From the IMG/VR virus record IMGVR_UViG_3300043465_001492, positions 42,637-106,636 of that record: a stretch of DNA of 64,000 nucleotides; one strand, given 5' to 3'. The DNA is from a virus. Below, one piece after another: positions 10,457 through 59,981 of the stretch (position 1 is its first letter; the number at the start of each line of letters is the position of its first letter). The notes under the pieces were generated by a model that was given only the letters and a program-made list of their open reading frames with translations, ran no database searches and was not told the origin of the DNA. The position numbers were made by a program, and so were the translations under genes.

Positions 10457-10464
10457 TATTTATA
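10457..10464 (-). promoter_or_regulatory. Late promoter TATAAATA, leaderless geometry
   Basis: Exact late octamer, 6 nt before the ATG at 10450; no Shine-Dalgarno sequence fits in the space. Confidence 0.7.
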
Positions 10465-12438: not shown

Positions 12439-12446
12439 TATTTATA
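12439..12446 (-). promoter_or_regulatory. Late promoter TATAAATA, leaderless geometry
   Basis: Exact octamer, 6 nt before the ATG at 12432, in the 33-bp gap behind the 850-aa gene. Confidence 0.7.
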
Positions 12447-12465: not shown

Positions 12466-15018
12466 TTATGTGTATGTATGAGAAGTTGTGTCTCCGCTAT
12501 TAATTGTAGTAGAAGGTGTAGCGTCACCCCATATTATTTCTACTTGTGATGGCGGAAAAGTGTTAATACTAAATTCATTTAAGACACTACTAGAAGCTGC
12601 AAATTCCCAAAGTTCATACACTATTTTTTGTACAATTACTGGTGCTGAGCCGCCAATAAGTATTGGCCCATCGGTTGCTCCTTTTCTTATAAAAATTGTA
12701 AATGTTTCAGATATTCCAGAGTTTTCACCCAATACCGGCACAACTCTAAAATATCCTGAATTATTTTTAATTACAAAACTACCAGAGTCCGATTCGATAT
12801 TTGTGCCAACTATGTTATAATATAGTATAGTGCCATCTGGTATAAATTTTGTATTTACATAAAATCTCACTGATTCGCCTTCAAATATATTAGTTTTATT
12901 TGAGAAAAATGTGCCCATTTGCACATTTGTTTGACCTTCAGTTATAAGTGTGTATTCGTCGTCTTCAGTTAAAAATGACTCTGAATCTTGTGTAGTAAAT
13001 GGATATCGATAAACTAGTGGTTCTTTGTCTTCAAGTGTACTATTCATATAGGCTTCCATAGTTATATCAAAAGATTCGACGACTGCTTCATCATATTCTG
13101 GGTCCGTGTCTTCATATGTTGGATCAAGTGGAATTAATTCACTATAAAACCATGGGTAGTATGAAAGATCGAGTACTTTAAATGTTATAAAACTTGATAT
13201 ATTACTAAACAGTCGATCAGCATTTGGTGTGTATGGCGCACTTGCCTGAGCAATAGTCTTGTGTGAAAAGCCAGAGACTAGTTCGTTTGGATCAAAGAAT
13301 TTTATCCAACGTTGATAGTCTTCATAGACTACTTTGTCTCTATAATTGGCATTAATTGCAAATATGCGAAGGGCAAGTTGAACCATACGTACTAGAGACT
13401 CCGGCGCGTTGCGATCTAGCAGTCTTGTAAGTATAATTGTTAGCAGTCTTTCGTTTGCCGTTAACCAACCTGGTTGACTACGAGGGCTATGATAGCCGAG
13501 TACTGGAGGATGATATGCATTTAGCCATGAATAACTTTCCTGCGGTTTGCGAACGACATAGTCAATAATATCGTACCATTCACTACGAGCAATAAATTCA
13601 AAGATTATAGCGCTAAATAGTTTTAACCCAGAAGGGTGTACAAACCGCAAATAATCATCGCCCCACTCATCATATGGTAATTCACTTTTGATTTCATATG
13701 AATAATTTTGCCAATAATAACCGTCATGCAACTTATATAGATTAGAAGCAAATGATTTGTTATCAGAATATGTCCATACATCTTCATCACTTGGAATTAC
13801 ACTCCATAGAATTGGATCTAGGTCTTCACACCGATAAATTGTTGGTGTTGGTGCGTCTTCTAATGAATATATAAGGTCACCAATTTTAGATGTATATTCT
13901 GGGCTTGCCGTTACGCTAAATATATGAGCATACTCGACATTTGAAATGTCAACTACATATGTTGAGCCGCCCGCTTCTTCTGTGACAATACCATTGTCTT
14001 CAGGAGGCAGTCCTTTTTGAGTTAATATATAGTCTGCCGTGCCCTCTTCAGTCTCTAAACCAAAAACTGAAATGTTTATACTATCATCACCAAGAGTAAT
14101 TATTTTTTCAGTAATTATTTCGTTGTTTGTAATAGACTCATCAACTAAAACTTTACCAGACTCATCAAGTATTTCTTCTGTGTCTGTAGATGGAACTATA
14201 GGAGTTATAGTTAACCTACTATACTCTATATTTTGAGAGTCTATTGTGTCATCATATTCAATGTTACGCGCAAAGATGTCCCAAACTGCTTCATCTGGCC
14301 AAGGCGTGTCATTTGTACTGTATAACTCAAAGTCATCTTTATATCGATAGACCCAACGATAAATGGGATCTGCTCCTTCAGTGGCAATATTTACTTTTTG
14401 TATATATGGAAGATTAAATGACTGTTCAACTTCTCCGTATGTCCAAAGATTAGTTGAAAAACATCTAAGAGTGACAGCATATGGCGCAACCGCAGAAGTT
14501 GGAAATGGACCAATTTTATAATCAGACGTTACAACAATTGTATTTTTATTTGGGTTTGTGCCTGATGTGCGTAATGATGGTATGTCAATTGGGGCCCAAC
14601 GGCCGCCGCCGCCTGACAAGTCAAATAGGTAATTTTTAGGGTAAAATATACTTACAATTTCGTCAAAGAAAAGTTTGAAAAATGTGTGTATGCTGTCTTC
14701 CGAACCGCGTGTATGATAATATTGTATAATAACGCGATAGAGAGTGACCTTATCAAGCACACGTGAATTTGGAATATTGCGTGCAATTAGGCTTTGTATT
14801 TGGGTTAGATATTTATCAGATACAATATCAATATCTTTTTCGCGAGTAATGGCAGCAATTTCGTTTGACGGCAAACCATTACGGTTTAGATGCTCATAAT
14901 AGCGCTCAATAAAATTGATAAGATTGCTCGCAGGCTCTTTTAAAGAATCTGGATACAAACTTTCGGTTTGTATTGATTCTATATTACGCGGGCGCGAATT
15001 TGCTATACTTAAAAGCAT
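12466..15018 (-). CDS. Large baseplate protein at the gp7 position, ends inside a PKD-like domain
   Basis: 850 residues. It directly follows the gp6 homologue (2-nt gap), as gene 7 follows gene 6 in T4, but I see no convincing sequence match to T4 gp7. Residues about 30-140 are a helical domain (IERYYEHLNRNGLPSNEIAA, then YYHTRGSEDSIHTFFKLFF) that I associate with large structural proteins of marine myoviruses. Residues about 700-790 look like the FEGESVRFYVNT/IPDGTILYYNI beta domain of other phage structural proteins. The last 40 residues start a PKD-like fold (VEIIWGDATPS ... HTY), but the stop comes right after HTYT, where a PKD domain normally has one more strand. Confidence 0.7.
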   Translation of the reverse strand: MLLSIANSRPRNIESIQTESLYPDSLKEPASNLINFIERYYEHLNRNGLPSNEIAAITREKDIDIVSDKYLTQIQSLIARNIPNSRVLDKVTLYRVIIQYYHTRGSEDSIHTFFKLFFDEIVSIFYPKNYLFDLSGGGGRWAPIDIPSLRTSGTNPNKNTIVVTSDYKIGPFPTSAVAPYAVTLRCFSTNLWTYGEVEQSFNLPYIQKVNIATEGADPIYRWVYRYKDDFELYSTNDTPWPDEAVWDIFARNIEYDDTIDSQNIEYSRLTITPIVPSTDTEEILDESGKVLVDESITNNEIITEKIITLGDDSINISVFGLETEEGTADYILTQKGLPPEDNGIVTEEAGGSTYVVDISNVEYAHIFSVTASPEYTSKIGDLIYSLEDAPTPTIYRCEDLDPILWSVIPSDEDVWTYSDNKSFASNLYKLHDGYYWQNYSYEIKSELPYDEWGDDYLRFVHPSGLKLFSAIIFEFIARSEWYDIIDYVVRKPQESYSWLNAYHPPVLGYHSPRSQPGWLTANERLLTIILTRLLDRNAPESLVRMVQLALRIFAINANYRDKVVYEDYQRWIKFFDPNELVSGFSHKTIAQASAPYTPNADRLFSNISSFITFKVLDLSYYPWFYSELIPLDPTYEDTDPEYDEAVVESFDITMEAYMNSTLEDKEPLVYRYPFTTQDSESFLTEDDEYTLITEGQTNVQMGTFFSNKTNIFEGESVRFYVNTKFIPDGTILYYNIVGTNIESDSGSFVIKNNSGYFRVVPVLGENSGISETFTIFIRKGATDGPILIGGSAPVIVQKIVYELWEFAASSSVLNEFSINTFPPSQVEIIWGDATPSTTINSGDTTSHTYT

Positions 15019-15020
15019 AC

Positions 15021-16889
15021 TTAACGGTCTCTACTAAATGTATTATACTGCACTGAACGATTTGAACCACCAACCGCAATTAGGTCAACTTCGCCATAAA
15101 CATTTAGGCGTGTTGTATCAATGCGCATAAGTTGGTTGCGTTTAGGCGCAAGGTCATTTGATAGCGGTATTACGTCTATTATCATTGTGGTATCAGTGTC
15201 GGCGAGTAGCGGTTCTATTTCCATTACTCCTGTACTCAATGTAAGCGTGCCAACGTCTTTATTACGAATAATTGGTTTATCATTGACATCATAATAATAG
15301 ACATATAGCAAGCGTATGTCAGACAGTGTTGGATGCGCCTCTTCACCAATATAATATGTAACTCCATCATAAACCCAACCAGTAGAATTTACAATGGCAA
15401 TATTATCGTCAACAGTTAATGATGTACCAAATTTTATTGTTATTTTTTGCGGTTGTCCACTAACTAACGTAAAACTTTTAGAAATAAACACTCGTATAAG
15501 TGAATTTAATATTGCAGGACTTGTTCCATCAACAGTCTTTGATAAAAATGAATGACGAAACACACCATCAAAAGATTCCAAATATTGACTATTAAATGCG
15601 CCTATACTTTCTTTAACCTTTGTTTCAAGTTGTGTTTTTGTGTATGTAGTCAGGTTACGGTTATACTTAAAGAGTACATCAAGCACAATATCAACATATT
15701 CAGGATCAACTATTTCAGGAAATATTGAGAGTACTTTTTTATCACTTAAATATGTTAGCAATCCTTGTTTTTCATTTGAAGTTAAAACTGATGAAGAATC
15801 CGATTTTTTTGCAGATATAAAAACTTTACCATATTGTGGCGGATCATTATCTTCGCCTCCCCACACAGCTACTGATTTTACATTTGTTAGATAACTGTGT
15901 ACCAATGTTTTATAGTCATCAGCAGTTACTGCACGATTTTGTGAAACATATTGAAGTGGCGCGTTATATTTTATACTGCTAATAGACTCACGGTCTGACC
16001 CGCCAACTGCACTTGCAACTGTATTTAAACTAACTCGAGTTAGTTGAGTTGAATCAAAAAAATCAGAGTATGAAAAAATATTTGAAGAGTTTGCGCCAAT
16101 ACCATCAGTAACCAAATATGTTAACTCTAAAACGTTTAAGTTATCTGGTTTTTTGCCAAATAAACCATTACCAAATGATATTACATAGTTGCCATTATAG
16201 TTTTCGTATAAGAAATAAATTGGGGTTGTATCATCAACAATATTAATATCCGTAAATAAAGAATATACTTCGTTAATTTCTGAACGTCCAGTTTGATATA
16301 CCGCTACTTTTAACGTGCTCGTATCAATATTTTTATCATCTATAATATATTCATTATTACTTTGTGTAGAATTTATTTGAATTCTCTTTTTAATAAATGT
16401 ACCTTGATATATGTCAACGTTATTTGCTACCAAGTTTCCACTAGAATTTTTTGTGCAGACAATATCATTTAAATTTGTGAATTTATAGGTTTGACTTTTT
16501 GAAAGGTCTGTTATATTTGATGAAAAAGTTGAACCCACTGGAAAAACATATTCATTTAATAATGTATTTCTTGGCGTTACAGTTACGTTTATTTGTGCCT
16601 TTGCAGAGGCATAACTGCGTGGGGTATATCCAATTAACTTTGCGGCAGACACCACGTTTTGTCGTAACTGTGCAGTATCAATAAAACTTTCATTGACTGC
16701 CATGTGTGCGAGTAATGCATTGTAATGTGTGTTATGCGAGAGCACATCAATCAACATATTTAATCCAGACCCAGCATAATCCCAGTCTTTAAATGGACTG
16801 TCTCCAGCCTTGAAATATTCTATTAGATTAGCCTTGATTTGATCAAAATCTAATTCTGTAACATTTACTGATTGTGTAGGAATTTCCAT
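15021..16889 (-). CDS. 6: Baseplate wedge subunit gp6 homologue
   Basis: 622 residues; T4 gp6 is 660. The N-terminus has the typical gp6/gpJ-family pattern: ELDFDQIKANLIEYFKA, then FKDWDYAGSGLNMLIDVLSH, NTHYNALLAHMAVNESFIDT and AAKLIGYTPRS. A GNGLFGKKP element follows near residue 225, then an RAVTADDYKTLV segment near residue 310. gp6 is the central scissor-shaped wedge protein that drives baseplate rearrangement. It overlaps the gp25 stop by 1 nt, keeping the conserved gp25-gp6 neighbourhood. Confidence 0.9.
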   Translation of the reverse strand: MEIPTQSVNVTELDFDQIKANLIEYFKAGDSPFKDWDYAGSGLNMLIDVLSHNTHYNALLAHMAVNESFIDTAQLRQNVVSAAKLIGYTPRSYASAKAQINVTVTPRNTLLNEYVFPVGSTFSSNITDLSKSQTYKFTNLNDIVCTKNSSGNLVANNVDIYQGTFIKKRIQINSTQSNNEYIIDDKNIDTSTLKVAVYQTGRSEINEVYSLFTDINIVDDTTPIYFLYENYNGNYVISFGNGLFGKKPDNLNVLELTYLVTDGIGANSSNIFSYSDFFDSTQLTRVSLNTVASAVGGSDRESISSIKYNAPLQYVSQNRAVTADDYKTLVHSYLTNVKSVAVWGGEDNDPPQYGKVFISAKKSDSSSVLTSNEKQGLLTYLSDKKVLSIFPEIVDPEYVDIVLDVLFKYNRNLTTYTKTQLETKVKESIGAFNSQYLESFDGVFRHSFLSKTVDGTSPAILNSLIRVFISKSFTLVSGQPQKITIKFGTSLTVDDNIAIVNSTGWVYDGVTYYIGEEAHPTLSDIRLLYVYYYDVNDKPIIRNKDVGTLTLSTGVMEIEPLLADTDTTMIIDVIPLSNDLAPKRNQLMRIDTTRLNVYGEVDLIAVGGSNRSVQYNTFSRDR

Positions 16890-25723: not shown

Positions 25724-25731
25724 TATAAATA
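25724..25731 (+). promoter_or_regulatory. Late promoter TATAAATA, leaderless geometry
   Basis: Exact octamer in the 21-bp gap, 5 nt before the ATG at 25737. Confidence 0.7.
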
Positions 25732-46999: not shown

Positions 47000-47953
47000 T
47001 TATGCCTCCCAACTTGTAACGAGCATTGCTTCTACACTCGGGATATCAAGTAAGTTTCTTCCGCCCGAGTAAGAAACCGCACTTTGAAGGTCCTGTTCTA
47101 TCTCGAGCAATTTTTCTGCATAGGTCATTGTGTCAAGATCTAGTGAACGCTTAACTCCTTCAACGTTTCGATATTCACCCTTGTTGTATTGAGAAGCACT
47201 TCCAAAATAAACTTTTTGACCGTCAATCATTTCAGCCGGTGAATCAATACATCGACTAAAGAGACCACCAACCATAACCATCTCTGCTCCGGCGTGAATT
47301 GCTTTTACAATGTCGGCATGCTCACGAACTCCGCCATCTGCGACTATTGGTGGATCATCAAGTTCTCGCACACGATCAATGAGTGTGATACAACTATACA
47401 TTGGAAAAGTAAAGCCAGTCTTATTTTTTGTGCTACACACACCACCACCCCCAATACCAACCTTTACAGCATCTGCTCCCCATTCAACAAGCCTGCGATA
47501 GCCTTCGGGAGTGCAGACATTGCCGGCAATAATTTTTGTATCAAGAGACAGCAAAGAAATATGACTCAACATCTCTTTCATAAGAATGCTATCACCATGA
47601 GCAATGTCGATTGTGACATAGTCTAACTTTAAATCTTCTGCTGCGATCTGCTCAAGTAGATATTTGTCGACTTCTTGTACGCCTACGCTGATGCTGATTG
47701 TTTTCCAACCTTGGGCAGCGCGAACAAATTCAAGGTTATCGATGCCAAAACGATGCATGACATAGAAATAGCCGCGTTCACTCAGCCATTTTGCATGTGA
47801 TTCGTTTATGACACATACCATATTCGAAGGCACCACTGGTAATTTAAATTGTGATCCTAAAAATACTGTAGAAACTTCAGCTCTCTGACGAGTCTTTAGG
47901 CTACTATAGCGAGGCAGCAAACATATGTCTTTATATTGATATGCAGTTTTCAT
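47000..47953 (-). CDS. guaC: GMP reductase (GuaC-like), IMPDH/GMPR superfamily
   Basis: 317 residues without a CBS insert, matching the length and sequence of Bacillus-type GuaC: KLPVVPSNMVCVI, GYFYVMHRFGI, DYVTIDIAHGDS, IIAGNVCTPEGYR, catalytic loop VGIGGGGVCSTKNKTGF with Cys173, IVADGGVREHADIVKAI, VMVGGLFSRC, YFGSASQYNKGE and EQDLQSAVSYSGG. GMP reductase converts GMP to IMP with NADPH. An IMP dehydrogenase is the main alternative, but the TGF after the loop and the missing CBS domains favour reductase. Unusual for a phage: it would shift the guanine pool toward IMP and adenine nucleotides. Confidence 0.88.
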   Translation of the reverse strand: MKTAYQYKDICLLPRYSSLKTRQRAEVSTVFLGSQFKLPVVPSNMVCVINESHAKWLSERGYFYVMHRFGIDNLEFVRAAQGWKTISISVGVQEVDKYLLEQIAAEDLKLDYVTIDIAHGDSILMKEMLSHISLLSLDTKIIAGNVCTPEGYRRLVEWGADAVKVGIGGGGVCSTKNKTGFTFPMYSCITLIDRVRELDDPPIVADGGVREHADIVKAIHAGAEMVMVGGLFSRCIDSPAEMIDGQKVYFGSASQYNKGEYRNVEGVKRSLDLDTMTYAEKLLEIEQDLQSAVSYSGGRNLLDIPSVEAMLVTSWEA

Positions 47954-51164: not shown

Positions 51165-51818
51165 CTATTGTAATCGTACTAAATTCAACAATTGTGTTTT
51201 ATTATGCAACCCTACTGTAAAATTTGCATGAAATGCTAAGGCATCACTATCTAAAACAAAATGCGGAGAATCTGGACTCCAAAGGCCGAGTTCTAGATTG
51301 CCATATGTCGTAAATTTGAGACTAAGTGGAATATATTTTAAACCTGAATGCGGTAACATCTCATTTATTACAGTTTGGTCACATTCCTTTGCTGCATAAT
51401 ATTCTTTATTACAAATGAGAGCTTCTTTTACATTATTAAAAAAGTTAATAGTTTCAGGACATACCCGACATACAAAAAGTCCGGCGCATAATGCGTTTTT
51501 GCTATCTTGTTGAAATGCAATATGAGAGTCTCCAAGTTCTTCTAACATTGTAGTTACTATGTTGCCTCTTACGCATATATCACTATCTAGATATATGAGT
51601 GCATCACCATATTGCAAAGCCTCAAGTTCAGTGATAATATGGTGTGTTTTATTATAACATGCATTAAAAAATGCCTCACTTTGAAAGTCTCCTTCGCAAC
51701 TATTATCAAGATATGCAATCTTACATTCATGTTTGCAATGTAACAAAATTTCATTATAAAGCTTTTCAGTAAAGTTTTGATGACGAGCCGAACAAACTGT
51801 TAAAAGCAAAACTTTCAT
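51165..51818 (-). CDS. Glycosyltransferase (GT-A, DxD) candidate
   Basis: 217 residues. KVLLLTVCSARHQNFTEKLY at the N-terminus, metal motif LIYLDSDICVRGNI (DSD) near residue 77, then CAGLFVCR, KECDQTVINEM and FHANFTVGLHNKTQLL, the order seen in GT77/GT8-type nucleotide-sugar transferases. It may modify phage DNA, capsid or host surface; target unknown. Confidence 0.7.
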   Translation of the reverse strand: MKVLLLTVCSARHQNFTEKLYNEILLHCKHECKIAYLDNSCEGDFQSEAFFNACYNKTHHIITELEALQYGDALIYLDSDICVRGNIVTTMLEELGDSHIAFQQDSKNALCAGLFVCRVCPETINFFNNVKEALICNKEYYAAKECDQTVINEMLPHSGLKYIPLSLKFTTYGNLELGLWSPDSPHFVLDSDALAFHANFTVGLHNKTQLLNLVRLQ

Positions 51819-52498
51819 GCCAGTAATGTTTCAATGTCTTTGATTATATCATCTTGCAATCCTCCCCATGACCAATATTGCTTACAATATTCTGGAATTT
51901 CGCTTGGGTGACACCATGAAAATGCTTCAGGATAAACTTTATGCGCCCATTGACCAAGAGTATTAAACTCACTAAATTCATTACGCTGTTGTTGGCATAT
52001 CCATTGTTCAAGGCTGCAACTATGTTTTTTCATTATCCATGCTCTAAACTCGTTATATATCCATCGTGGATATATAATTGGATGTCTTCTCATATATTCA
52101 TAACTATCATACCAACCAAGAGTCTTTTCAGAGATCGCATTCCATGGACTATTAGAACATTCTTCGCGAAGCATAATAGGTTTGTTATCTTTAAAAAAAC
52201 AAGTTGGTGAAAAATCTTTATAAAAAATACAGTCACTATCAACATGAAGAATATAGTCAGATAAACACCACGTGTCTGCATGTAATTTAGTAATCTGTTG
52301 CGCAAGATAGCCATCACATTGATCAACTGTGCCATGTACATTCTCTGCTGTAAGGTGAGCGAGCAGTTGAACATCAGATTCTGGGACTACAAGATGAAGA
52401 GTTTCAAACTCTTTACCATATTTATGTATACTTTTTAAAGAATGCCACAACCATTTAAAGTCATTGCGATACGAACGTATGAGTATATCAGTTTTCAT
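51815..52498 (-). CDS. Glycosyltransferase-like protein with DSD motif
   Basis: 227 residues from ATG 52498, which overlaps the methyltransferase stop. TDILIRSYRNDFKWLWHSLK, then ILHVDSDCIFYKDF (DSD), WIYNEFRAWIMKK and a C-terminal HPSEIPEYCKQYWSWGGLQD. The C-terminus is partly duplicated in the remnant at 50938-51128. Its 3' end overlaps the next glycosyltransferase by 4 nt. Confidence 0.7.
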   Translation of the reverse strand: MKTDILIRSYRNDFKWLWHSLKSIHKYGKEFETLHLVVPESDVQLLAHLTAENVHGTVDQCDGYLAQQITKLHADTWCLSDYILHVDSDCIFYKDFSPTCFFKDNKPIMLREECSNSPWNAISEKTLGWYDSYEYMRRHPIIYPRWIYNEFRAWIMKKHSCSLEQWICQQQRNEFSEFNTLGQWAHKVYPEAFSWCHPSEIPEYCKQYWSWGGLQDDIIKDIETLLA

Positions 52499-53151
52499 TG
52501 CGGTATGCAAAGTATGTCATATTGTTCACCAACTTCAGGGAATGGTATTATGTCATAACCAAATTGAGACAGAAAGTTTTCAATATCATGCGCAGTTTTA
52601 CCATGTTGCGCAAGGGCACCGACATTAATTTCAATCCAAAAAACTGGACGATATTTTGAAATTGTTTCTTTTGCTCCTTCTAAAGCATTGAGTTCATAAC
52701 CTTCTATGTCAAGCTTAAAAAAATCAAGAGCAGGTAGGTTTAGTGAGTCTAATGTTATAGTTTTTATGCAAAATGAACCATCACCAGACTGTTGTGATAT
52801 TCGGCCAGCTCCGGCATTATTATCTACTGAATAGTTTACTTCTTCGTCACAATTTGATAGTCCGCAATTAAATAATTTTGCTGAACCACAATTATATTGT
52901 AAACATTCAAAGGCTGCAGGATTAGGTTCAAACGCATAAACGTCTCCATTTTTACCAACTGCATCACAATATGCAAGTGTGTGGTCGCCTATAAATGCGC
53001 CAGCATCAACAACTGTATAACCAGGTTGTATGTGTTCTAAAATGATTGGCAACGCGTAGCGATCATGATCGAGGCGGCCACTTTCTTCAACCCAACGTGA
53101 TATATGAGTATCATTCTCTAAAATCGCAATGTTTTCACGCGTTATTTTCAT
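52495..53151 (-). CDS. FkbM-family SAM-dependent methyltransferase
   Basis: 218 residues. SAM motif VVDAGAFIGDHTL (47-59), VYAFEPNPAAFECLQYN, then the FkbM signature LDFFKLDIEGYELNALEGA near residue 145 and PVFWIEIN. Typically O-methylates sugars; together with the adjacent glycosyltransferases it suggests synthesis or capping of a glycan. A late octamer lies 6 nt before the ATG. Confidence 0.85.
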   Translation of the reverse strand: MKITRENIAILENDTHISRWVEESGRLDHDRYALPIILEHIQPGYTVVDAGAFIGDHTLAYCDAVGKNGDVYAFEPNPAAFECLQYNCGSAKLFNCGLSNCDEEVNYSVDNNAGAGRISQQSGDGSFCIKTITLDSLNLPALDFFKLDIEGYELNALEGAKETISKYRPVFWIEINVGALAQHGKTAHDIENFLSQFGYDIIPFPEVGEQYDILCIPQ

Positions 53152-53157
53152 ATATTT

Positions 53158-53173
53158 TATTTATAATAAATAA
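53158..53173. promoter_or_regulatory. Divergent late promoters
   Basis: Minus strand: exact TATAAATA at 53165-53158, 6 nt before ATG 53151. Plus strand: the same A/T block offers AATAAATA at 53166-53173, 4 nt before ATG 53178; this second call is weaker. Confidence 0.55.
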
Positions 53174-54664: not shown

Positions 54665-56761
54665 TTAGTGTATCAATGCAAGATGTGTGACTTTGTCGTA
54701 TAGATGGGGCACGACATACCATTGCTCTGCATCAGATATATCTTTTGGAGATTCGAGTGCACCAATCTCAAGAAGATCTGTTCCCCATGCAACTGATACT
54801 GCTTTCCACTCGCTGCCTAATTTCATGTGTGACATAAGTTTGCTGCTAGAGATTCGATCAAAATCAGTCTTTGCAAGCAGTTTATATGGGTCGAGTTGAT
54901 AGAGTTCGCGGTCTTGAATAAAGAAGATATATTTTCCTTGCACTGGTTTGATGTTAGCAGCTTCTTCGAGTGTCTCACCTTGCACTTCGGTGTCTTCCAT
55001 ACGAACTGGACGCTTTGCATAGGCATCAGCTGCTGCAGAAATATGATCAGCTACTGCTGCCCACGCCTTTGCATTTGATGCACCACTTGTATTTTTATCT
55101 GGCATTCCAAGAGCATTTACTGGACGGCTCATATTAGAGATGCCTTGTGCATTGTCTGCGAGTGCTTGTAAGAAAAGTAGATAGTCTTTAGGGCTCATTT
55201 CATCAATCTTGGCAATAAGCTTTTGTATTGCTGGTGTTGGAACAGCTTCTTCGAGGGTCTCTTCCTCCTTAACAAGGTTTTTATAGAGACCACCTGGACC
55301 AGACAATTTGCTGCCAGCTGGACGATATTTACCAAGTTTATACTTTTTGTTGTAGTCATCACGACTCATAACGCCAGCATTTACTCGGGCCATATCAATC
55401 TGTTTGCGGCGCTTGAGTGCGGCATCTGCTGGAGTGGCTTCATTCATCTTTTCATCAGAGCAATCAGACTCTTCTTTGTATGTACCGACATGAGGAAGTT
55501 TTGGCTCTTTGATGCCCTTTGCCTTTTGCTTGAGATATTCTTCAGCGTGATCCTTTGCCTCTTGAGGCACATTGTATCTGACTGCACTTTGGTATATAAC
55601 CCTTTTAGTTTTCTTATCAAGTATAGTCGGACGATATCCGCCAAACTGACTCTTTTCAGAAGTTGTGAGATAGTCACCAAGCCAGTTGATTGCTTCATCA
55701 AGGGTTTCTTCTTCAGTGCTCTCTTCTTCTTTATAGACTGGATTGCTTTTCTGAGATTTGTTGAGGTCTGGATAATATTTGCGCACTGCTTCAATTGCTT
55801 TTTTAGCAATTTCTTTTGTCTTTTTAGCGCCATTTGGTTGCATAATTTCAAACCACATGTCTTCAACATAGTCATAAATCTTTGGAAAACGATCAAAAAT
55901 ATCTTCATGACTTAAACGAATAGACACGCTAGTGACGTCCCAAAGTTTTGAATCTGGGGCGTCGACTATGCTTTGTAATTCGTCGATGAGGTCGGCTGGC
56001 TTGCGTAATGGCTTGTATGCTTCAGCAACGTCCTCTTCTTCAAGTTCAGTCTCTTCCTTTAGTTTGATTGTTTTAAGAAGTAAAAATTCTGAGCTGCCCA
56101 TCTTGCGTTGGTTAAACGCGATTGTTGTCTTTGGAAGATCTTTTGCCTTGAATGTAATGCTGTTAGGACCAATCTCTAACACCTTGCCAAAGTTTGTAGT
56201 GTCGCCAACCTTTAGAGTGTCAATGATTGTCTTGACGTCTTCTACGCCTTCTTCGAGAGTATCAGCGCTTTCACGAATGGTATTGTTATAGATGTCATTT
56301 ATCAATGCATACTCATCATCGCTTAATAATGTTTTGAGACGTGCACTATAAGCTCTAACTAGCTTTTTACGCTCTTCATTATTCTTTTTAGCTTCTTCTG
56401 TAGATTTTGATGAATAAGGAAAAGATTTAATTTGTGAAATAAGCTCTTTTGATTTGCTGTCCTTTAAGATTTTATCGAGTGTGCTCTTTAAGAATTGTGC
56501 AGACTCCTTTGCGTCTCTTTCGTCTGCTTTATCTGAAAGATATCTTTTTATTGCGCCACCAAATATAGCAGCTACACCAATTCCTCCTCCAATTACTAAT
56601 GCTGCTACAATATCAATAATGTCTTTTACATACATTGATTGGATAAGGTTCCAATCAATTGCTTCGTCAAGAGTATCAGACTCTTGCAGTTGAGTTTTGC
56701 CAGTTAGAATTGCTGCAGCTGCAGCATACATCGGGTCTTGGTGATAGTGGAAGTTATTCAT
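54665..56761 (-). CDS. Modular candidate internal head protein / polyprotein, 698 aa
   Basis: N-terminal MNNFHYHQDPMYAAAAAILT plus LQE (residues 25-27) is shared with four neighbours. The same acidic E-rich linker with an LxE-A/G site recurs at module borders: TLDEA (residues 30-34), TLEEG (168-172), TLDEA (353-357), TLEEA (502-506), TLEEA (597-601). The pieces in between differ: a membrane-prone glycine segment (about 50-70), a beta domain (about 180-235), helical domains and a C-terminal soluble domain. Residues about 507-580 resemble a domain in the 57233 protein. This fits processing by a T4 gp21-type prohead protease (L/I-x-E). A late octamer lies 9 nt upstream. Confidence 0.6.
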   Translation of the reverse strand: MNNFHYHQDPMYAAAAAILTGKTQLQESDTLDEAIDWNLIQSMYVKDIIDIVAALVIGGGIGVAAIFGGAIKRYLSDKADERDAKESAQFLKSTLDKILKDSKSKELISQIKSFPYSSKSTEEAKKNNEERKKLVRAYSARLKTLLSDDEYALINDIYNNTIRESADTLEEGVEDVKTIIDTLKVGDTTNFGKVLEIGPNSITFKAKDLPKTTIAFNQRKMGSSEFLLLKTIKLKEETELEEEDVAEAYKPLRKPADLIDELQSIVDAPDSKLWDVTSVSIRLSHEDIFDRFPKIYDYVEDMWFEIMQPNGAKKTKEIAKKAIEAVRKYYPDLNKSQKSNPVYKEEESTEEETLDEAINWLGDYLTTSEKSQFGGYRPTILDKKTKRVIYQSAVRYNVPQEAKDHAEEYLKQKAKGIKEPKLPHVGTYKEESDCSDEKMNEATPADAALKRRKQIDMARVNAGVMSRDDYNKKYKLGKYRPAGSKLSGPGGLYKNLVKEEETLEEAVPTPAIQKLIAKIDEMSPKDYLLFLQALADNAQGISNMSRPVNALGMPDKNTSGASNAKAWAAVADHISAAADAYAKRPVRMEDTEVQGETLEEAANIKPVQGKYIFFIQDRELYQLDPYKLLAKTDFDRISSSKLMSHMKLGSEWKAVSVAWGTDLLEIGALESPKDISDAEQWYVVPHLYDKVTHLALIH

Positions 56762-56770
56762 GTGTTAATA

Positions 56771-56778
56771 TATTTATA
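56771..56778 (-). promoter_or_regulatory. Late promoter TATAAATA
   Basis: Exact octamer, 9 nt before ATG 56761. Confidence 0.65.
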
Positions 56779-56779
56779 T

Positions 56780-57223
56780 TTAGTTTAGTTCGTCAATTTC
56801 TAATTTTTGATCGAAGGTTTTAAAATAGTATTTGTTGTCGCTGTGTTCCTTTGCAATCTCATAGACCTTTTCAGCAGACGTCTTTGGATTTGCGATGTGT
56901 GTCACGTCTTGACTGTAGACATTAAAATAACTTTCACCATCTTCTTTTTCAATTGTATAGAATGTAGTCTTGGTAATCCATCCTTTGTTCGACTGCTTGA
57001 AAATCATAATAGCAATTGTGTCAGCGTCTTCTTGAGCTGCAGAGAATCCACCATTTTTACCAAAGATCCGATTATTTTTTGACTTTAACATTGCAGCGCC
57101 CTTAGAAGCTTTAAGTTCTTTAAGGGCAGACGCATGCGATGCATCTTCTGTTAATGATTCTCTGCCGAGTATCTTTGCTGCAGCGGCATACAACGGGTCT
57201 TGGTTGTAATGAAAATTATTCAT
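56780..57223 (-). CDS. Candidate internal head protein, 147 aa
   Basis: N-terminus MNNFHYNQDPLYAAAAKILG then LTE (24-26) is nearly identical to the 698-aa neighbour. The rest (KGWITKTTFYTIEKEDGESY ...) is a small alpha/beta domain of unknown role. Removal of about 26 residues would leave a 13-kDa soluble protein. Confidence 0.6.
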   Translation of the reverse strand: MNNFHYNQDPLYAAAAKILGRESLTEDASHASALKELKASKGAAMLKSKNNRIFGKNGGFSAAQEDADTIAIMIFKQSNKGWITKTTFYTIEKEDGESYFNVYSQDVTHIANPKTSAEKVYEIAKEHSDNKYYFKTFDQKLEIDELN

Positions 57224-57229
57224 ATGTCT

Positions 57230-57237
57230 TATTTATT
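57230..57237 (-). promoter_or_regulatory. Late promoter (AATAAATA)
   Basis: 6 nt before ATG 57223, overlapping the end of the upstream gene; one mismatch. Confidence 0.5.
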
Positions 57238-57754
57238 CTGCTTCCTTTGTGCTCTCAATATAGTCACGAGCACTGACAACATACTCTTCTGCCTTTACGA
57301 GATTTGCTTGAACGTGCTCTGGTAAATTTTCGTCGTCGCTTAGCATGTCATGCAATCCTTTTGCGTTGCGAATGATTGTGCGGAGTGCGGTCTTTGCCAT
57401 GCTGCCTTCAGCGTCATACTCGCCTGCGTCTTGCTCAGCAGCTTCAAAATAACCATACTTTTCTCCAGTCTTTAATCCACTTGCTGCTCTTGCTGCGTCA
57501 TATAGATGATCACTTATTTTTTTAATGACTTCTCTTGGATTGCCTTTTTGATCACGTGATGATGCATATTTTGTCATCTCATCCATGTGATCGGCAAATG
57601 CAAGTAAAAATTCTTGCATCTGACTTCTATTTAAATTATCAATTTCTGCTAATAGGCGTTTTACAATTGTGCTTTGTGCTTCTTGAAGAGACTCGTCCGG
57701 AGTCTTGCCCTGCAGTATGAGTGTTGCTGCTTCTACAAGTGTGTCTTTATGCAT
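57233..57754 (-). CDS. Candidate internal head protein, 173 aa
   Basis: N-terminus MHKDTLVEAATLILQGKTPD with LQE-A at residues 23-26, the same design without the FxYxxDPLY part. Residues about 30-100 are helical (IVKRLLAEIDNLNRSQMQEF, LLAFADHMDEM) and resemble the module at residues 507-580 of the 698-aa protein and the C-terminus of the 57747 protein. Acidic C-terminal half. Confidence 0.6.
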   Translation of the reverse strand: MHKDTLVEAATLILQGKTPDESLQEAQSTIVKRLLAEIDNLNRSQMQEFLLAFADHMDEMTKYASSRDQKGNPREVIKKISDHLYDAARAASGLKTGEKYGYFEAAEQDAGEYDAEGSMAKTALRTIIRNAKGLHDMLSDDENLPEHVQANLVKAEEYVVSARDYIESTKEAE

Positions 57755-58535
57755 ATCTTTCGTTTCTATTTTTCCAAATTTGTGCTGCCTTATAGATTAA
57801 TGCAGAGATGTTGCTTGATTCTTTATAGTCAGACATTTCGCCTTCTTCGAAAAAGCTATCAAGCGCAAACAAGAAATCTTCCATTTCGTCTTCATCCAGA
57901 TTGCCTACTGCTTCAATTGCTTTTTTAGCAAGTGGAAACTTAGCAGTATAATATTCTTGGAGTGTGATGTCTTCATATAAATCAGACTCTTCAGCAAGCT
58001 TCTTATATGGCCCAATTGCTGCTACACTATTTCCAGTAATATACAATTTAAATCCGCCTTTACGAGCAAATTTTTGTACTTTTACCTTCATGTCTTTAGA
58101 AGAAGCTTTAGCATTATTTGTCTTTATCAAATCTAAAAGTTTGTTAGCTGCAGCTTCACTGTCTACAGCAGCAATTACTCTATTAGGCATAGCTTCCTTT
58201 TCAGGTTTAGCAAAGTCACCCTTTTCAGCCATTACTGCTCGTACTAAATCAGCTAATTTGATCTTTGGATTGAATATAGCATCTCGAATTGCGGTTTTGC
58301 TAGCAACTACAAAATCAGTATCATCAAAATATGGTTTAGCTTTGATTTTACGAAGATGATCTTTTACGCCAGGCAGTTTTAATAGTGCAGCAATAATTTC
58401 TGGAGCACTGCCAAAGCCGTCAAGCGTGTCATTAGCTGATGCTTCTGATAAAGTTTCTTCTGAAATATTTTTGCCAGCAAGAATTGATGCAGCAATATCA
58501 TATAATGGATCTTCATTATAATTAAATAATTTCAT
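57747..58535 (-). CDS. Candidate internal head protein, 262 aa
   Basis: N-terminus MKLFNYNEDPLYDIAASILA with ISE (24-26) and LSE-A (29-32). A second potential site TLQEY lies near residue 200. The C-terminal helical domain (AKKAIEAVGNLDEDEMEDFL, FALDSFFEE) is shared with two neighbours. It is preceded by a 9-codon upstream ORF whose TGA overlaps this ATG. Confidence 0.6.
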   Translation of the reverse strand: MKLFNYNEDPLYDIAASILAGKNISEETLSEASANDTLDGFGSAPEIIAALLKLPGVKDHLRKIKAKPYFDDTDFVVASKTAIRDAIFNPKIKLADLVRAVMAEKGDFAKPEKEAMPNRVIAAVDSEAAANKLLDLIKTNNAKASSKDMKVKVQKFARKGGFKLYITGNSVAAIGPYKKLAEESDLYEDITLQEYYTAKFPLAKKAIEAVGNLDEDEMEDFLFALDSFFEEGEMSDYKESSNISALIYKAAQIWKNRNERYA

Positions 58536-58568
58536 AATTGATAGTTGTCAAAGGGTTGCATATAAGAC

Positions 58569-58606
58569 TATTTATACATTTTCATAATTCGAAAATTGTA
58601 TAAATA
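58569..58606. promoter_or_regulatory. Divergent late promoters
   Basis: Minus: exact TATAAATA at 58576-58569, 7 nt before the ATG of a 9-codon leader ORF (58561-58532). Plus: exact TATAAATA at 58599-58606, 5 nt before ATG 58612. Confidence 0.75.
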
Positions 58607-58611
58607 AGAGT

Positions 58612-59070
58612 ATGACTAATTTTACTTCTTATAAAAACGACTCATTGGTTTCTGCTGCTGCACAGATTATGTCTCAAGAACAATTAAGCGAAGGCATTGT
58701 AACATTTCCAAGCTATCGTGCTAAAGGTAAAGGCATCTATATCGGAAAGGATCTTGTAAGTAAAGATGATCTTGGCTCAGCTGTCGATACAATCAACAGA
58801 CAGGTAGACAAGTTTCCACTCTTTGGTAAATATCTTGAAGTTCACTCTGGTTCTGACAGCATTCGTGGAGAGTGTGTTGGCTATGCTCATATTCATGGTG
58901 CACCAATGCTGCTCATTCGCGACAGCAACTATAAAGAAGTATGGATTGATGCAGATCGTGCTCAACGGGAGATCTATGCATTTACTCCAGCGAAAAAAGA
59001 AGTCACTACAACCGGTACTGGATCAAGTGACAATCCAATGCTTTATAGCTTTGGCAAGACCAACTATTAA
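58612..59070 (+). CDS. Candidate internal head protein, 152 aa, plus strand
   Basis: N-terminus MTNFTSYKNDSLVSAAAQIM with LSE-G at residues 25-28: the same targeting-peptide design on the other strand. The mature domain (RAKGKGIYIGKDLVSKDDLG ... GECVGYAHIHGAPMLLIRDS) is a compact beta domain; the end is Ser/Thr-rich. Late octamer 5 nt upstream. Confidence 0.6.
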   Translation: MTNFTSYKNDSLVSAAAQIMSQEQLSEGIVTFPSYRAKGKGIYIGKDLVSKDDLGSAVDTINRQVDKFPLFGKYLEVHSGSDSIRGECVGYAHIHGAPMLLIRDSNYKEVWIDADRAQREIYAFTPAKKEVTTTGTGSSDNPMLYSFGKTNY

Positions 59071-59219: not shown

Positions 59220-59948
59220 TTAGAACGACTTCTTAAACTCAATTCCACCGAAGAAAAGATTCTTCATGTCTGAATGCACGCCAACCGAGTCATCAAGACC
59301 GAGTGAGTACGAAACAAACGGGACAGCGGTCACACCTTGCACAACTGGAATGTCAGTCGACATAGTGGTCTCAAAATGAGTGCACTGTCCTTCTTGAGCG
59401 AGATAACCAAGCTCAGCACGAAAGTCAAGCATCAATGAAGATCCAAAGTCATCACTGTATGTTGCAGCAAGTTCGCTGTAAGCATTGTTATCACCTACAA
59501 TACTCATATACTGAGTAAGCGAAAGATCGATTGGACCAACTGCACGTGATACAGTCAAGCCAGCTTCTTGCGCTTGTCCTTCCTGGCCTGCATAGTCCTG
59601 CGAATACCAGGTATAGCTCAAAGATACGAGATAGTCAGCAATACTCTTAGAGAAGATTGCAGACAGCTCAGTAGCTTCGTCCTTCCCAGTTGTTTCAGCG
59701 TTTGCATAGTCAGCGCTCAAAGCCAACGAAACGTCCGCAGGAAGTTCAGTTGTCGTTGTGACGATTGCATTTGCTTCATTTGCGCCTAGATCAGCACCAC
59801 GCCAGACCTTATCAGAAGAGTAGCCAGTTTCAAGCATCACCGGCGTGAATGCTGAAGGAGCGTCTTCGATTGTACCAGCGTATGCATAGTTAAGAGCAGC
59901 AAGTGCTGCAATCATACCAATTTTAACGATTTGTGTTTGTTTTTTCAT
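59220..59948 (-). CDS. Outer-membrane beta-barrel (TorF-type porin-like) protein
   Basis: 242 residues from ATG 59948. Signal peptide MKKQTQIVKIGMIAALAALN-YAYA, cleavage likely after AYA. Mature protein of alternating beta strands with LETGYSSDKVWRGADLG, similar to the GY-SD-x-xRG start of TorF/Gcw_chp putative porins, and a C-terminal phenylalanine (EFKKSF) typical for BAM-assembled barrels. A host-type outer-membrane protein in a phage; a receptor-masking or lysogenic-conversion-like role is inferred. No promoter clearly recognised. Confidence 0.75.
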   Translation of the reverse strand: MKKQTQIVKIGMIAALAALNYAYAGTIEDAPSAFTPVMLETGYSSDKVWRGADLGANEANAIVTTTTELPADVSLALSADYANAETTGKDEATELSAIFSKSIADYLVSLSYTWYSQDYAGQEGQAQEAGLTVSRAVGPIDLSLTQYMSIVGDNNAYSELAATYSDDFGSSLMLDFRAELGYLAQEGQCTHFETTMSTDIPVVQGVTAVPFVSYSLGLDDSVGVHSDMKNLFFGGIEFKKSF

Positions 59949-59981
59949 ATTATAGTTCATTTTGTTTTTCAGGGGGAGAAG

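Follow-up and report, generated by a model that had tools for sequence, protein, structure and literature searches.

The window analyzed here comprises 64,000 nucleotides, bases 42,637-106,636 of a virus record of 106,636 bases (IMG/VR record IMGVR_UViG_3300043465_001492). It carries five adjacent genes, which we call P1 to P5, whose products begin with related N-terminal leaders that end at an L/I-x-E motif. Judging from its gene content, the record is that of an uncultured phage of bacteria from the T4 superfamily, with matches to the PHROG families of terminase, sheath, tube, portal, protease, scaffold, and major head protein. P1 (54665-56761, minus strand) encodes a putative precursor of 698 amino acids (aa), whose leader spans residues 1-27 (56681-56761) and ends with LQE. 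On the same strand, P2 (56780-57223; 147 aa) consists of a leader (57146-57223, ends LTE) and one putative cargo of 121 aa; P3 (57233-57754; 173 aa) of a leader (57680-57754, ends LQE), a helical module, and a C-terminal module marked by SMAK and also present in cyanophages; and P4 (57747-58535; 262 aa) of a leader (58458-58535, ends ISE), a core module (residues 32 to about 186), and a second helical module past L-x-E linkers. P5 (58612-59070, plus strand; 152 aa) has a leader (58612-58692, ends LSE) and one putative cargo of 125 aa.

The initial annotation, made from the sequence alone, had pointed out five adjacent open reading frames (ORFs) with related leaders and a site at residues 25-27 in P1, 24-26 in P2, 23-25 in P3, 24-26 in P4, and 25-27 in P5, and all coordinates and sites were reproduced. 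The site ends at residues 25-27 in all five proteins and in only 2 of the 88 other ORFs of at least 100 aa in the record, which are the longest non-overlapping ORFs and not curated genes. None of these 88 matches a regular expression for the leader. Finding the site in five out of five adjacent genes is far from chance, even if the motif was picked after being noticed. The leader pattern that had been quoted for three proteins holds exactly for P2, but P1 has DPMY and P4 departs from it after DPLY (DPLYDIAASIL); P3 and P5 fit it more loosely. The leaders had also been called amphipathic, which we could not substantiate: depending on the protein, 25-89% of the sequences obtained by shuffling its 25 residues reached the best hydrophobic moment over 11 residues. 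The same test leaves amphipathicity unsupported in the leaders of T4 as well (7% of the shuffles for IpI, 54% for IpII, 43% for IpIII). When sequences are clustered, the leaders of P1, P2, P4, and P5 group together and that of P3 stays outside, and no cluster unites mature pieces from two of the five proteins. In the loci of relatives, the regular expression retrieves 29 distinct sequences, several of which are truncated copies. Some of these loci carry a sixth leader-type gene (141 aa, MNAFNS...DSLVEAAKQILEKV) at about 5 kb from the P5 gene, as in L005 (2889-3314); tblastn found no counterpart of it in the window.

The record encodes a prohead protease of the gp21 type (S77), the presence of which had been proposed as a check of the initial annotation. 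The protein matches PF03420 (E = 3.4e-44) and the head maturation protease family phrog_207 (E = 4e-80), and the sequence of the T4 gp21 crystal structure 5jbl (E = 1.2e-27) is its sole match in PDB at E ≤ 0.001. Homologues of the scaffold gp22 (phrog_237, E = 9.4e-72) and of the capsid protein gp23 adjoin it. A second contig, of 173,760 bases and with a capsid protein 97% identical, also carries both gp21 and P1. Overall, gp21 was found in 2 of the 15 relative records searched, the two that exceed 140 kb, whereas the 13 without it have 19-89 kb. In the linear record, the five ORFs are some 80-95 kb away from the head genes, in an accessory region where they adjoin seven tRNA genes. Similarly, the ipI gene of T4 adjoins a tRNA cluster away from the head genes, with ipII and ipIII a few kb off. 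Another contig (G001, 143,932 bases), which holds the L005 locus, has a P1 about 92% identical to that of the window together with a distant gp21, a distant gp23 (34-45% identity in three pieces), and a gp22-like ORF (L076) that looks different by eye; it could be either a chimeric contig or a case of head-module replacement.

The motif TATAAATA, which resembles a late promoter, is found 9, 33, and 5 nucleotides upstream of P1 (56771-56778, minus strand), P4 (58569-58576, minus strand), and P5 (58599-58606, plus strand), respectively. P4, P3, and P2 share a strand and come in this order behind the motif of P4, so that the three may form a late unit. The motif occurs 15 times in the window, about twice as often as in shuffled sequences (7.4), and none of 100 shuffles reaches 15. 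The whole record has 29 sites, 24 of which were assigned to an ORF, and 13 of these 24 lie 5-9 nucleotides before the start codon (sites close to starts include 10457-10464, 12439-12446, 25724-25731, and 53158-53165 of the window). Such spacing would mean that late mRNAs have nearly no 5' leader.

When [LIM]-x-E sites are marked on P1 and its relatives, the proteins resolve mostly into blocks of 50-130 aa with short acidic stretches between them, where the sites are often in tandem. P1 consists of a leader and about seven modules: module 1 (residues 34-164; 56270-56662), module 2 (172-236; 56054-56248), modules 3 (243-356; 55694-56035), 4 (357-441; 55439-55693), and 5 (442-505; 55247-55438), whose edges were set by hand, the helical module 6 (506-600; 54962-55246), which has a relative in L038, and one or more C-terminal modules (601-698; 54668-54961), all on the minus strand. 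Module 2, which we call FKAKDLP after its motif, is predicted to be a small and mostly beta domain, with a predicted local distance difference test score (pLDDT) of 86.9 for the best of five models and below 67 for two of them, and 15 of its 65 columns are invariant across 27 sequences. In neither library did a fold search with this model reach E < 0.001, and the top PDB matches, channels of the MscS type, were too weak to indicate a function. The matched part of these channels is an Sm-like barrel. The AlphaFold2 model of full-length P1 (9 sequences) had a mean pLDDT of 45 and was not used as evidence.

Leader proteins related to P1 have 953, 818, 716, 703, 687, 396, and 321 aa, plus one of 611 aa that is truncated by a contig end, and the one of 396 aa has little in common with P1 besides the leader. 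Their alignment indicates that these uncultured phages gain, lose, and swap modules, often at the linkers. The 818-aa version is devoid of module 1, so that its leader is fused straight to module 2, and the joint after module 2 holds different modules in the 953-aa and 818-aa versions. One module adjoins module 2 in L014 and is four modules downstream in L012. In L009, an extra module is flanked by a duplicated linker. Linker-like DNA forms imperfect repeats (at least 65% identity), with five copies of 30 nucleotides in the P1 of the window and seven of 23 nucleotides in L009, which may provide a route for the exchange of modules by recombination. The neighboring P4 and P3 genes also trade modules, each keeping its own leader, as judged from five relatives (L165, L166, L168, L174, and L175). 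There, the gene in the place of P4 encodes a leader, the helical module of the window's P3, and the second module of P4, whereas in the gene that stands for P3 the leader is followed by a new module and then by the one found at the C-terminus of P3. Both genes lack the P4 core module, which in L055 is part of a leader polyprotein with five modules and in L083 sits in the scaffold. Hence, the single helical domain that the initial annotation had seen as shuffled is indeed shuffled, but is only one of a larger set of such modules.

In relatives, some of these modules also lie within the gp22 scaffold. Through its residues 23-194, P4 matches residues 227-398 of the gp22 of L083 (E = 2.5e-88), and residues 26-168 of P1, which span module 1, match residues 211-351 of the gp22 of L114 (E = 9.6e-29). 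By the core profile, the gp22 cores of these two scaffolds are 97% and 54% identical, respectively, to that of the phage studied here, and the first value makes the move of the P4 core to the scaffold look recent. A profile of module 2 retrieved 33 loci. Apart from leader proteins, this module is found in 7 of the 67 ORFs that fit the gp22 core profile; three of its carriers (L066, L072, and L073) are gp22 by PHROG 237 (E = 5.7e-61, 2.5e-69, and 1.8e-63). The search for gp22 cores used the best 80 of 504 relatives, 61 of which yielded an ORF bearing the core signature (50 distinct proteins). Among these, the N-terminally complete proteins have 179-779 residues ahead of the signature; T4 gp22 has only 269 aa in total. 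We then compared 24 non-scaffold proteins, two of them N-terminally incomplete, with the N-terminal parts of the scaffolds using phmmer and obtained 183 domain matches. A reading of the match list indicates that at least eight module families occur both in leader proteins and in gp22. Twenty of the 24 proteins have a scaffold match, a share that is inflated because most of them were fetched for holding module 2, so that these counts are only a guide.

Since gp22 is a substrate of gp21 and part of the prohead core, modules that lie inside it would reach the head, an argument that does not depend on the leader. We regard this sharing as strong, if indirect, evidence for arrival of the modules in the head, and it weighs more in the argument than the L-x-E sites. 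It also bears on the possibility that the five are not head proteins at all, the leader being common for another reason, such as the binding of one partner in the cell, and the sites arising by chance. The leader's dissimilarity to that of T4 would fit such a view, and so would the location of the genes in a tRNA-bearing accessory region distant from the head genes. Against it stand the modules common with the scaffold, the site at residues 25-27 in five out of five proteins as opposed to 2 of 88, and the fact that T4 ipI is also beside tRNA genes and off from the head genes, which together make it highly improbable.

We consider it likely that the five genes are a modular version of the internal-protein system of T4, in which either a leader or the scaffold carries modules that gp21 separates. 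Leaders, sites, protease, scaffold, and module exchange can all be read in the sequences. The N-terminal leader would take the precursor into the prohead core, as does the capsid-targeting sequence (CTS) of T4, and the gp21-type protease of the same genome would cut after L/I/M-x-E and take the leader off. In P1, and in the two-module proteins P3 and P4, the acidic linkers would be cut too, as the module boundaries suggest, to free several small domains. Leader genes and gp22 act as interchangeable carriers, because some of the same modules ride in the gp22 of relatives instead of behind a leader, and repeated linker DNA may let modules swap by recombination. The freed domains, of roughly 6-17 kDa, would stay in the head and would probably be injected with the DNA like IpI-IpIII of T4, perhaps against host defenses; injection is the weakest step. 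All steps, from packaging and removal of the leader through cleavage of the linkers and retention to injection, would follow the example of T4. The initial annotation had proposed a set of internal head proteins, and the packaging part of that proposal is well supported, if indirectly, by gp21 and by the presence of the P4 core and P1 module 1 in gp22. Correct as to kind, it was nevertheless too narrow, as it missed that P1, and less markedly also P3 and P4, look like multi-module precursors, and that cargo is exchanged with the scaffold.

The distribution of L-x-E in these proteins bears on the cleavage of the linkers. Pairwise comparisons of nine P1-type proteins give 112 breakpoints, 58 of which have an L-x-E no more than 8 aa away; random positions averaged 32.6 and did not exceed 52 in 5000 draws. 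On the scaffold side, 99 of 151 match edges from phmmer are within 10 aa of an L-x-E, where random positions averaged 72.7 and never exceeded 95 in 2000 draws; the corresponding values for the leader side are 127 of 184, 68.2, and 92. Breakpoints and boundaries share ancestry and scaffolds, so that all these draws should be taken as a guide rather than as exact probabilities. Of the distinct copies of module 2, 25 of 26 have an L-x-E within 15 aa on the upstream side and 24 of 27 on the downstream side, although the profile of this module was built from pieces cut at L-x-E and its edges are not fully independent. These three tests rely on edges given by homology and not on those set by hand. 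The contrast between leader plus linkers (19 L-x-E in 243 aa) and modules (12 in 1189 aa) is partly circular, because there, as in the module coordinates given above, the edges were set by hand with the sites in view.

Several points weigh against our proposal. The common ancestry of the breakpoints and the way the 24 proteins were chosen, both mentioned above, are among them. The plain count of L-x-E in P1 is 14 for 10.7 in shuffles (p = 0.16), and of eight P1 relatives, two are above shuffles (p = 0.007 and 0.014) and six are not (p = 0.05-0.27). Edges are richer than interiors in L-x-E by a factor of 3.3, but the factor is 2.2 for E in general, 1.9 for [ASTGNQ]-x-E, and 1.25 for L/I/M two positions ahead; the product of 2.2 and 1.25 is about 2.7, so that the excess of L-x-E itself is modest, and the acidic composition of the linkers accounts for much of the enrichment at edges. 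Avoidance of L-x-E inside modules was considered and rejected, since 14 were observed for 14.0 expected, and the helical module of P3 has three. The absence of internal sites in module 2 is not significant (P = 0.65 for one sequence; 4.2 expected across 27 related sequences). By eye, none of the five proteins has a leader like the CTS of T4, which starts with MKTF or MKTY (MNNFHY..DPLYAAAA as opposed to MKTYQEFIAE); MKTF is found only in the cyanophage proteins that carry the P3 module. With phmmer, P2, P3, and P5, as well as the L025 protein, had no match embedded in a scaffold, and the match of P4 covers its core (residues 23-194) and not nearly the whole mature protein; this and the modest excess of L-x-E lowered our confidence slightly. 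Finally, scans against Pfam, PHROGs, NCBIfam, and PADLOC gave only weak matches and no known effector or anti-defense domain in the five proteins.

The same site statistics can be read in terms of P1 being packaged or expressed as a single chain with flexible acidic linkers, comparable to the polyvalent proteins, from which the leader alone is removed. This agrees with the share of the signal at joints that is explained by linker acidity and composition, and multidomain injected proteins have been proposed before (PMC5512222). Yet L-x-E at joints exceeds each single composition control, module edges in the two carriers meet L-x-E more than do random positions, and a module embedded in gp22 would be exposed to gp21 along with a substrate that gets degraded, all of which leaves an uncut chain quite improbable. 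Alternatively, the modules may be core filler, which would enter the prohead by leader or scaffold, serve as bulk, be cut up, and exit before DNA packaging instead of being injected. In T4, gp21 degrades gp22, gp67, and gp68, whose peptides presumably exit (PMC9958956); the gp22 of relatives embeds modules, and the lack of visible selection against internal L-x-E is in line with such a fate. However, module 2 is predicted to be folded and is conserved in both carriers, more than filler seems to need, the modules have dedicated leader genes, as do the injected proteins of T4, and their sizes overlap those of the T4 internal proteins of 95, 100, and 193 aa. We therefore see core filler as rather unlikely.

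The closest known system is that of T4, where a short CTS sends proteins to the core and is taken off by gp21 (PMC7411985, PMC9958956, PMC3012670). The internal proteins of T4 are known as injected proteins, each with a tag of its own. IpI-IpIII inhibit type IV restriction enzymes and have nothing but the leader in common (PMC12373910). Like IpI, IpII, IpIII, and Alt, which carry a CTS cut by gp21, the proteins described here have a short leader ending at L/I-x-E, and like the T4 internal proteins they combine related leaders with unrelated mature parts, provide several small cargos per phage, are encoded beside a tRNA cluster, and come with a homologous protease and scaffold. They differ from them in the sequence and length of the leader (25-27 aa here, 10-19 aa in T4), in having several modules per precursor, and in that the same modules are embedded in the gp22 of relatives. 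The inner-body or ejection proteins of SPN3US and phiKZ are also internal head proteins whose propeptides are removed by a gp21-like protease with multiple cuts (PMC10052503, PMC5694885), but there these cuts strip long propeptides off one mature protein, and the accessible parts of these two reports do not mention module exchange with the scaffold. Polyvalent proteins were proposed in 2017 as multidomain phage proteins that are packaged and injected (PMC5512222). In contrast to the five proteins, which are without a known catalytic domain in Pfam, they join disparate biochemical activities, and their processing, where the accessible text discusses it, is by their own peptidase domain, whereas here we ascribe it to the prohead protease.

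Matches to families and to cultured phages are few. None of the five proteins has a Pfam family at E ≤ 0.01, nor do 8 of 10 relatives, the other two having DUF5856 just under the cut-off and DUF7141 well under it. The best match of the five in PHROGs is to a family of unknown function (E = 0.0027), and none is to the inner-body proteins of SPN3US or phiKZ. A match of PifA to a helical stretch of P3 (E = 3.5e-4) was taken as chance. A module of a leader polyprotein in L061 (5896-6636) matches a family of starvation-inducible regulators, PHROG 858 (E = 7.6e-9), and, just under the cut-off, DUF5856; it is perhaps a Dps-like cargo. With tblastn, neither P1 nor P4 matched any of 50,697 phage records, and two further modules had no match among the phages of GenBank. 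P3 matched eight records, of Synechococcus and Flavobacterium phages only. Its C-terminal module is encoded by two cyanophages, S-H9-1 (E = 4e-13) and S-WAM2 (E = 7e-13), where it follows the leader MKTFKQLRE, which resembles the MKTF/MKTY of T4. It matches weakly (E = 0.06) an 841-aa protein of Flavobacterium phage immuto, in which two copies are visible by eye. A module of L038 has weak matches in four cyanophages (five records, E = 0.002-0.03), including a 1007-aa protein of P-TIM68. The claim that no described family has this set consequently stands for the five proteins at the level searched, with P2 and P5 outside the GenBank phage search, but not for the C-terminal module of P3.

The likeness to Kyanoviridae extends to AIR93496 of P-TIM68, 156/157 of SynMITS9220M01, ORFs of S-WAM2 and S-H9-1, and gp160 of S-CREM2, and beyond them to immuto 192. 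The modules of these proteins are related to those described here (E = 4e-13 for that of P3, 0.002-0.06 for the weaker matches), many of their joints have an L-x-E, and a short N-terminal stretch comes ahead of the first site; their leaders differ, and they are deposited as hypothetical or under a domain name only. In the virion of S-CREM2, mass spectrometry found gp160 with seven unique peptides and gp154 with three (PMC10665884, Table 3). S-CREM2 gp154 has LTE at residues 8-10, and gp160 has multiple L-x-E and two stretches in common with the 1007-aa protein of P-TIM68 (E = 1.5e-21 and 3.4e-11). These virion proteins are the nearest to experimental support, albeit indirect. Among the proteins compared, gp160 matches only P-TIM68 and SfCH8, and no module protein of the window or of IMG/VR, and the link passes through P-TIM68, which is itself weakly matched to a module here (E = 0.03), a further point on the opposing side. 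In the full-text literature searched, which leaves most subscription papers outside, we found neither a polyprotein reading of the cyanophage and immuto proteins nor any description of a polyprotein, scaffold-cargo, or internal-protein version of such an arrangement. The two features without a description in that literature are the multi-cargo precursors and the cargo common to gp22.

A few other features of these genomes are worth reporting. At bases 13522-16142 of the record (L002), the gp17 terminase is split into an N-terminal half (PF03237), an ORF with a GIY-YIG domain just under the Pfam cut-off, and a C-terminal half (PF17289), ahead of which about 150 residues look intein-like by eye; the gene may have been fractured and may house a homing endonuclease together with a split intein. 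In the window, an ORF between tRNA genes (59220-59960) has a start resembling a signal peptide and, by eye, an outer-membrane-like sequence, with no match in Pfam. The window also encodes an IMP dehydrogenase/GMP reductase domain (47000-47953; PF00478, E = 1.6e-45) and a DUF6492 protein that adjoins an FkbM-type methyltransferase (51815-53151), possibly genes for sugar or glycan modification.

More broadly, phages of the T4 superfamily from freshwater and the sea may have a plug-and-play delivery system, an idea to which we give about an even chance. Any small domain flanked by sites for the prohead protease could be placed behind a leader, in a polyprotein, or in gp22, and be freed and injected, so that the scaffold would be both builder and carrier and heads would hold many small effectors from few genes. 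If true, this would explain how uncultured T4-like phages diversify their injected proteins, and it would give a function to the long and variable N-termini of gp22 in such phages. The L-x-E linker would become a search key for counter-defense proteins, and these precursors would offer a natural design for loading several proteins in one phage head.

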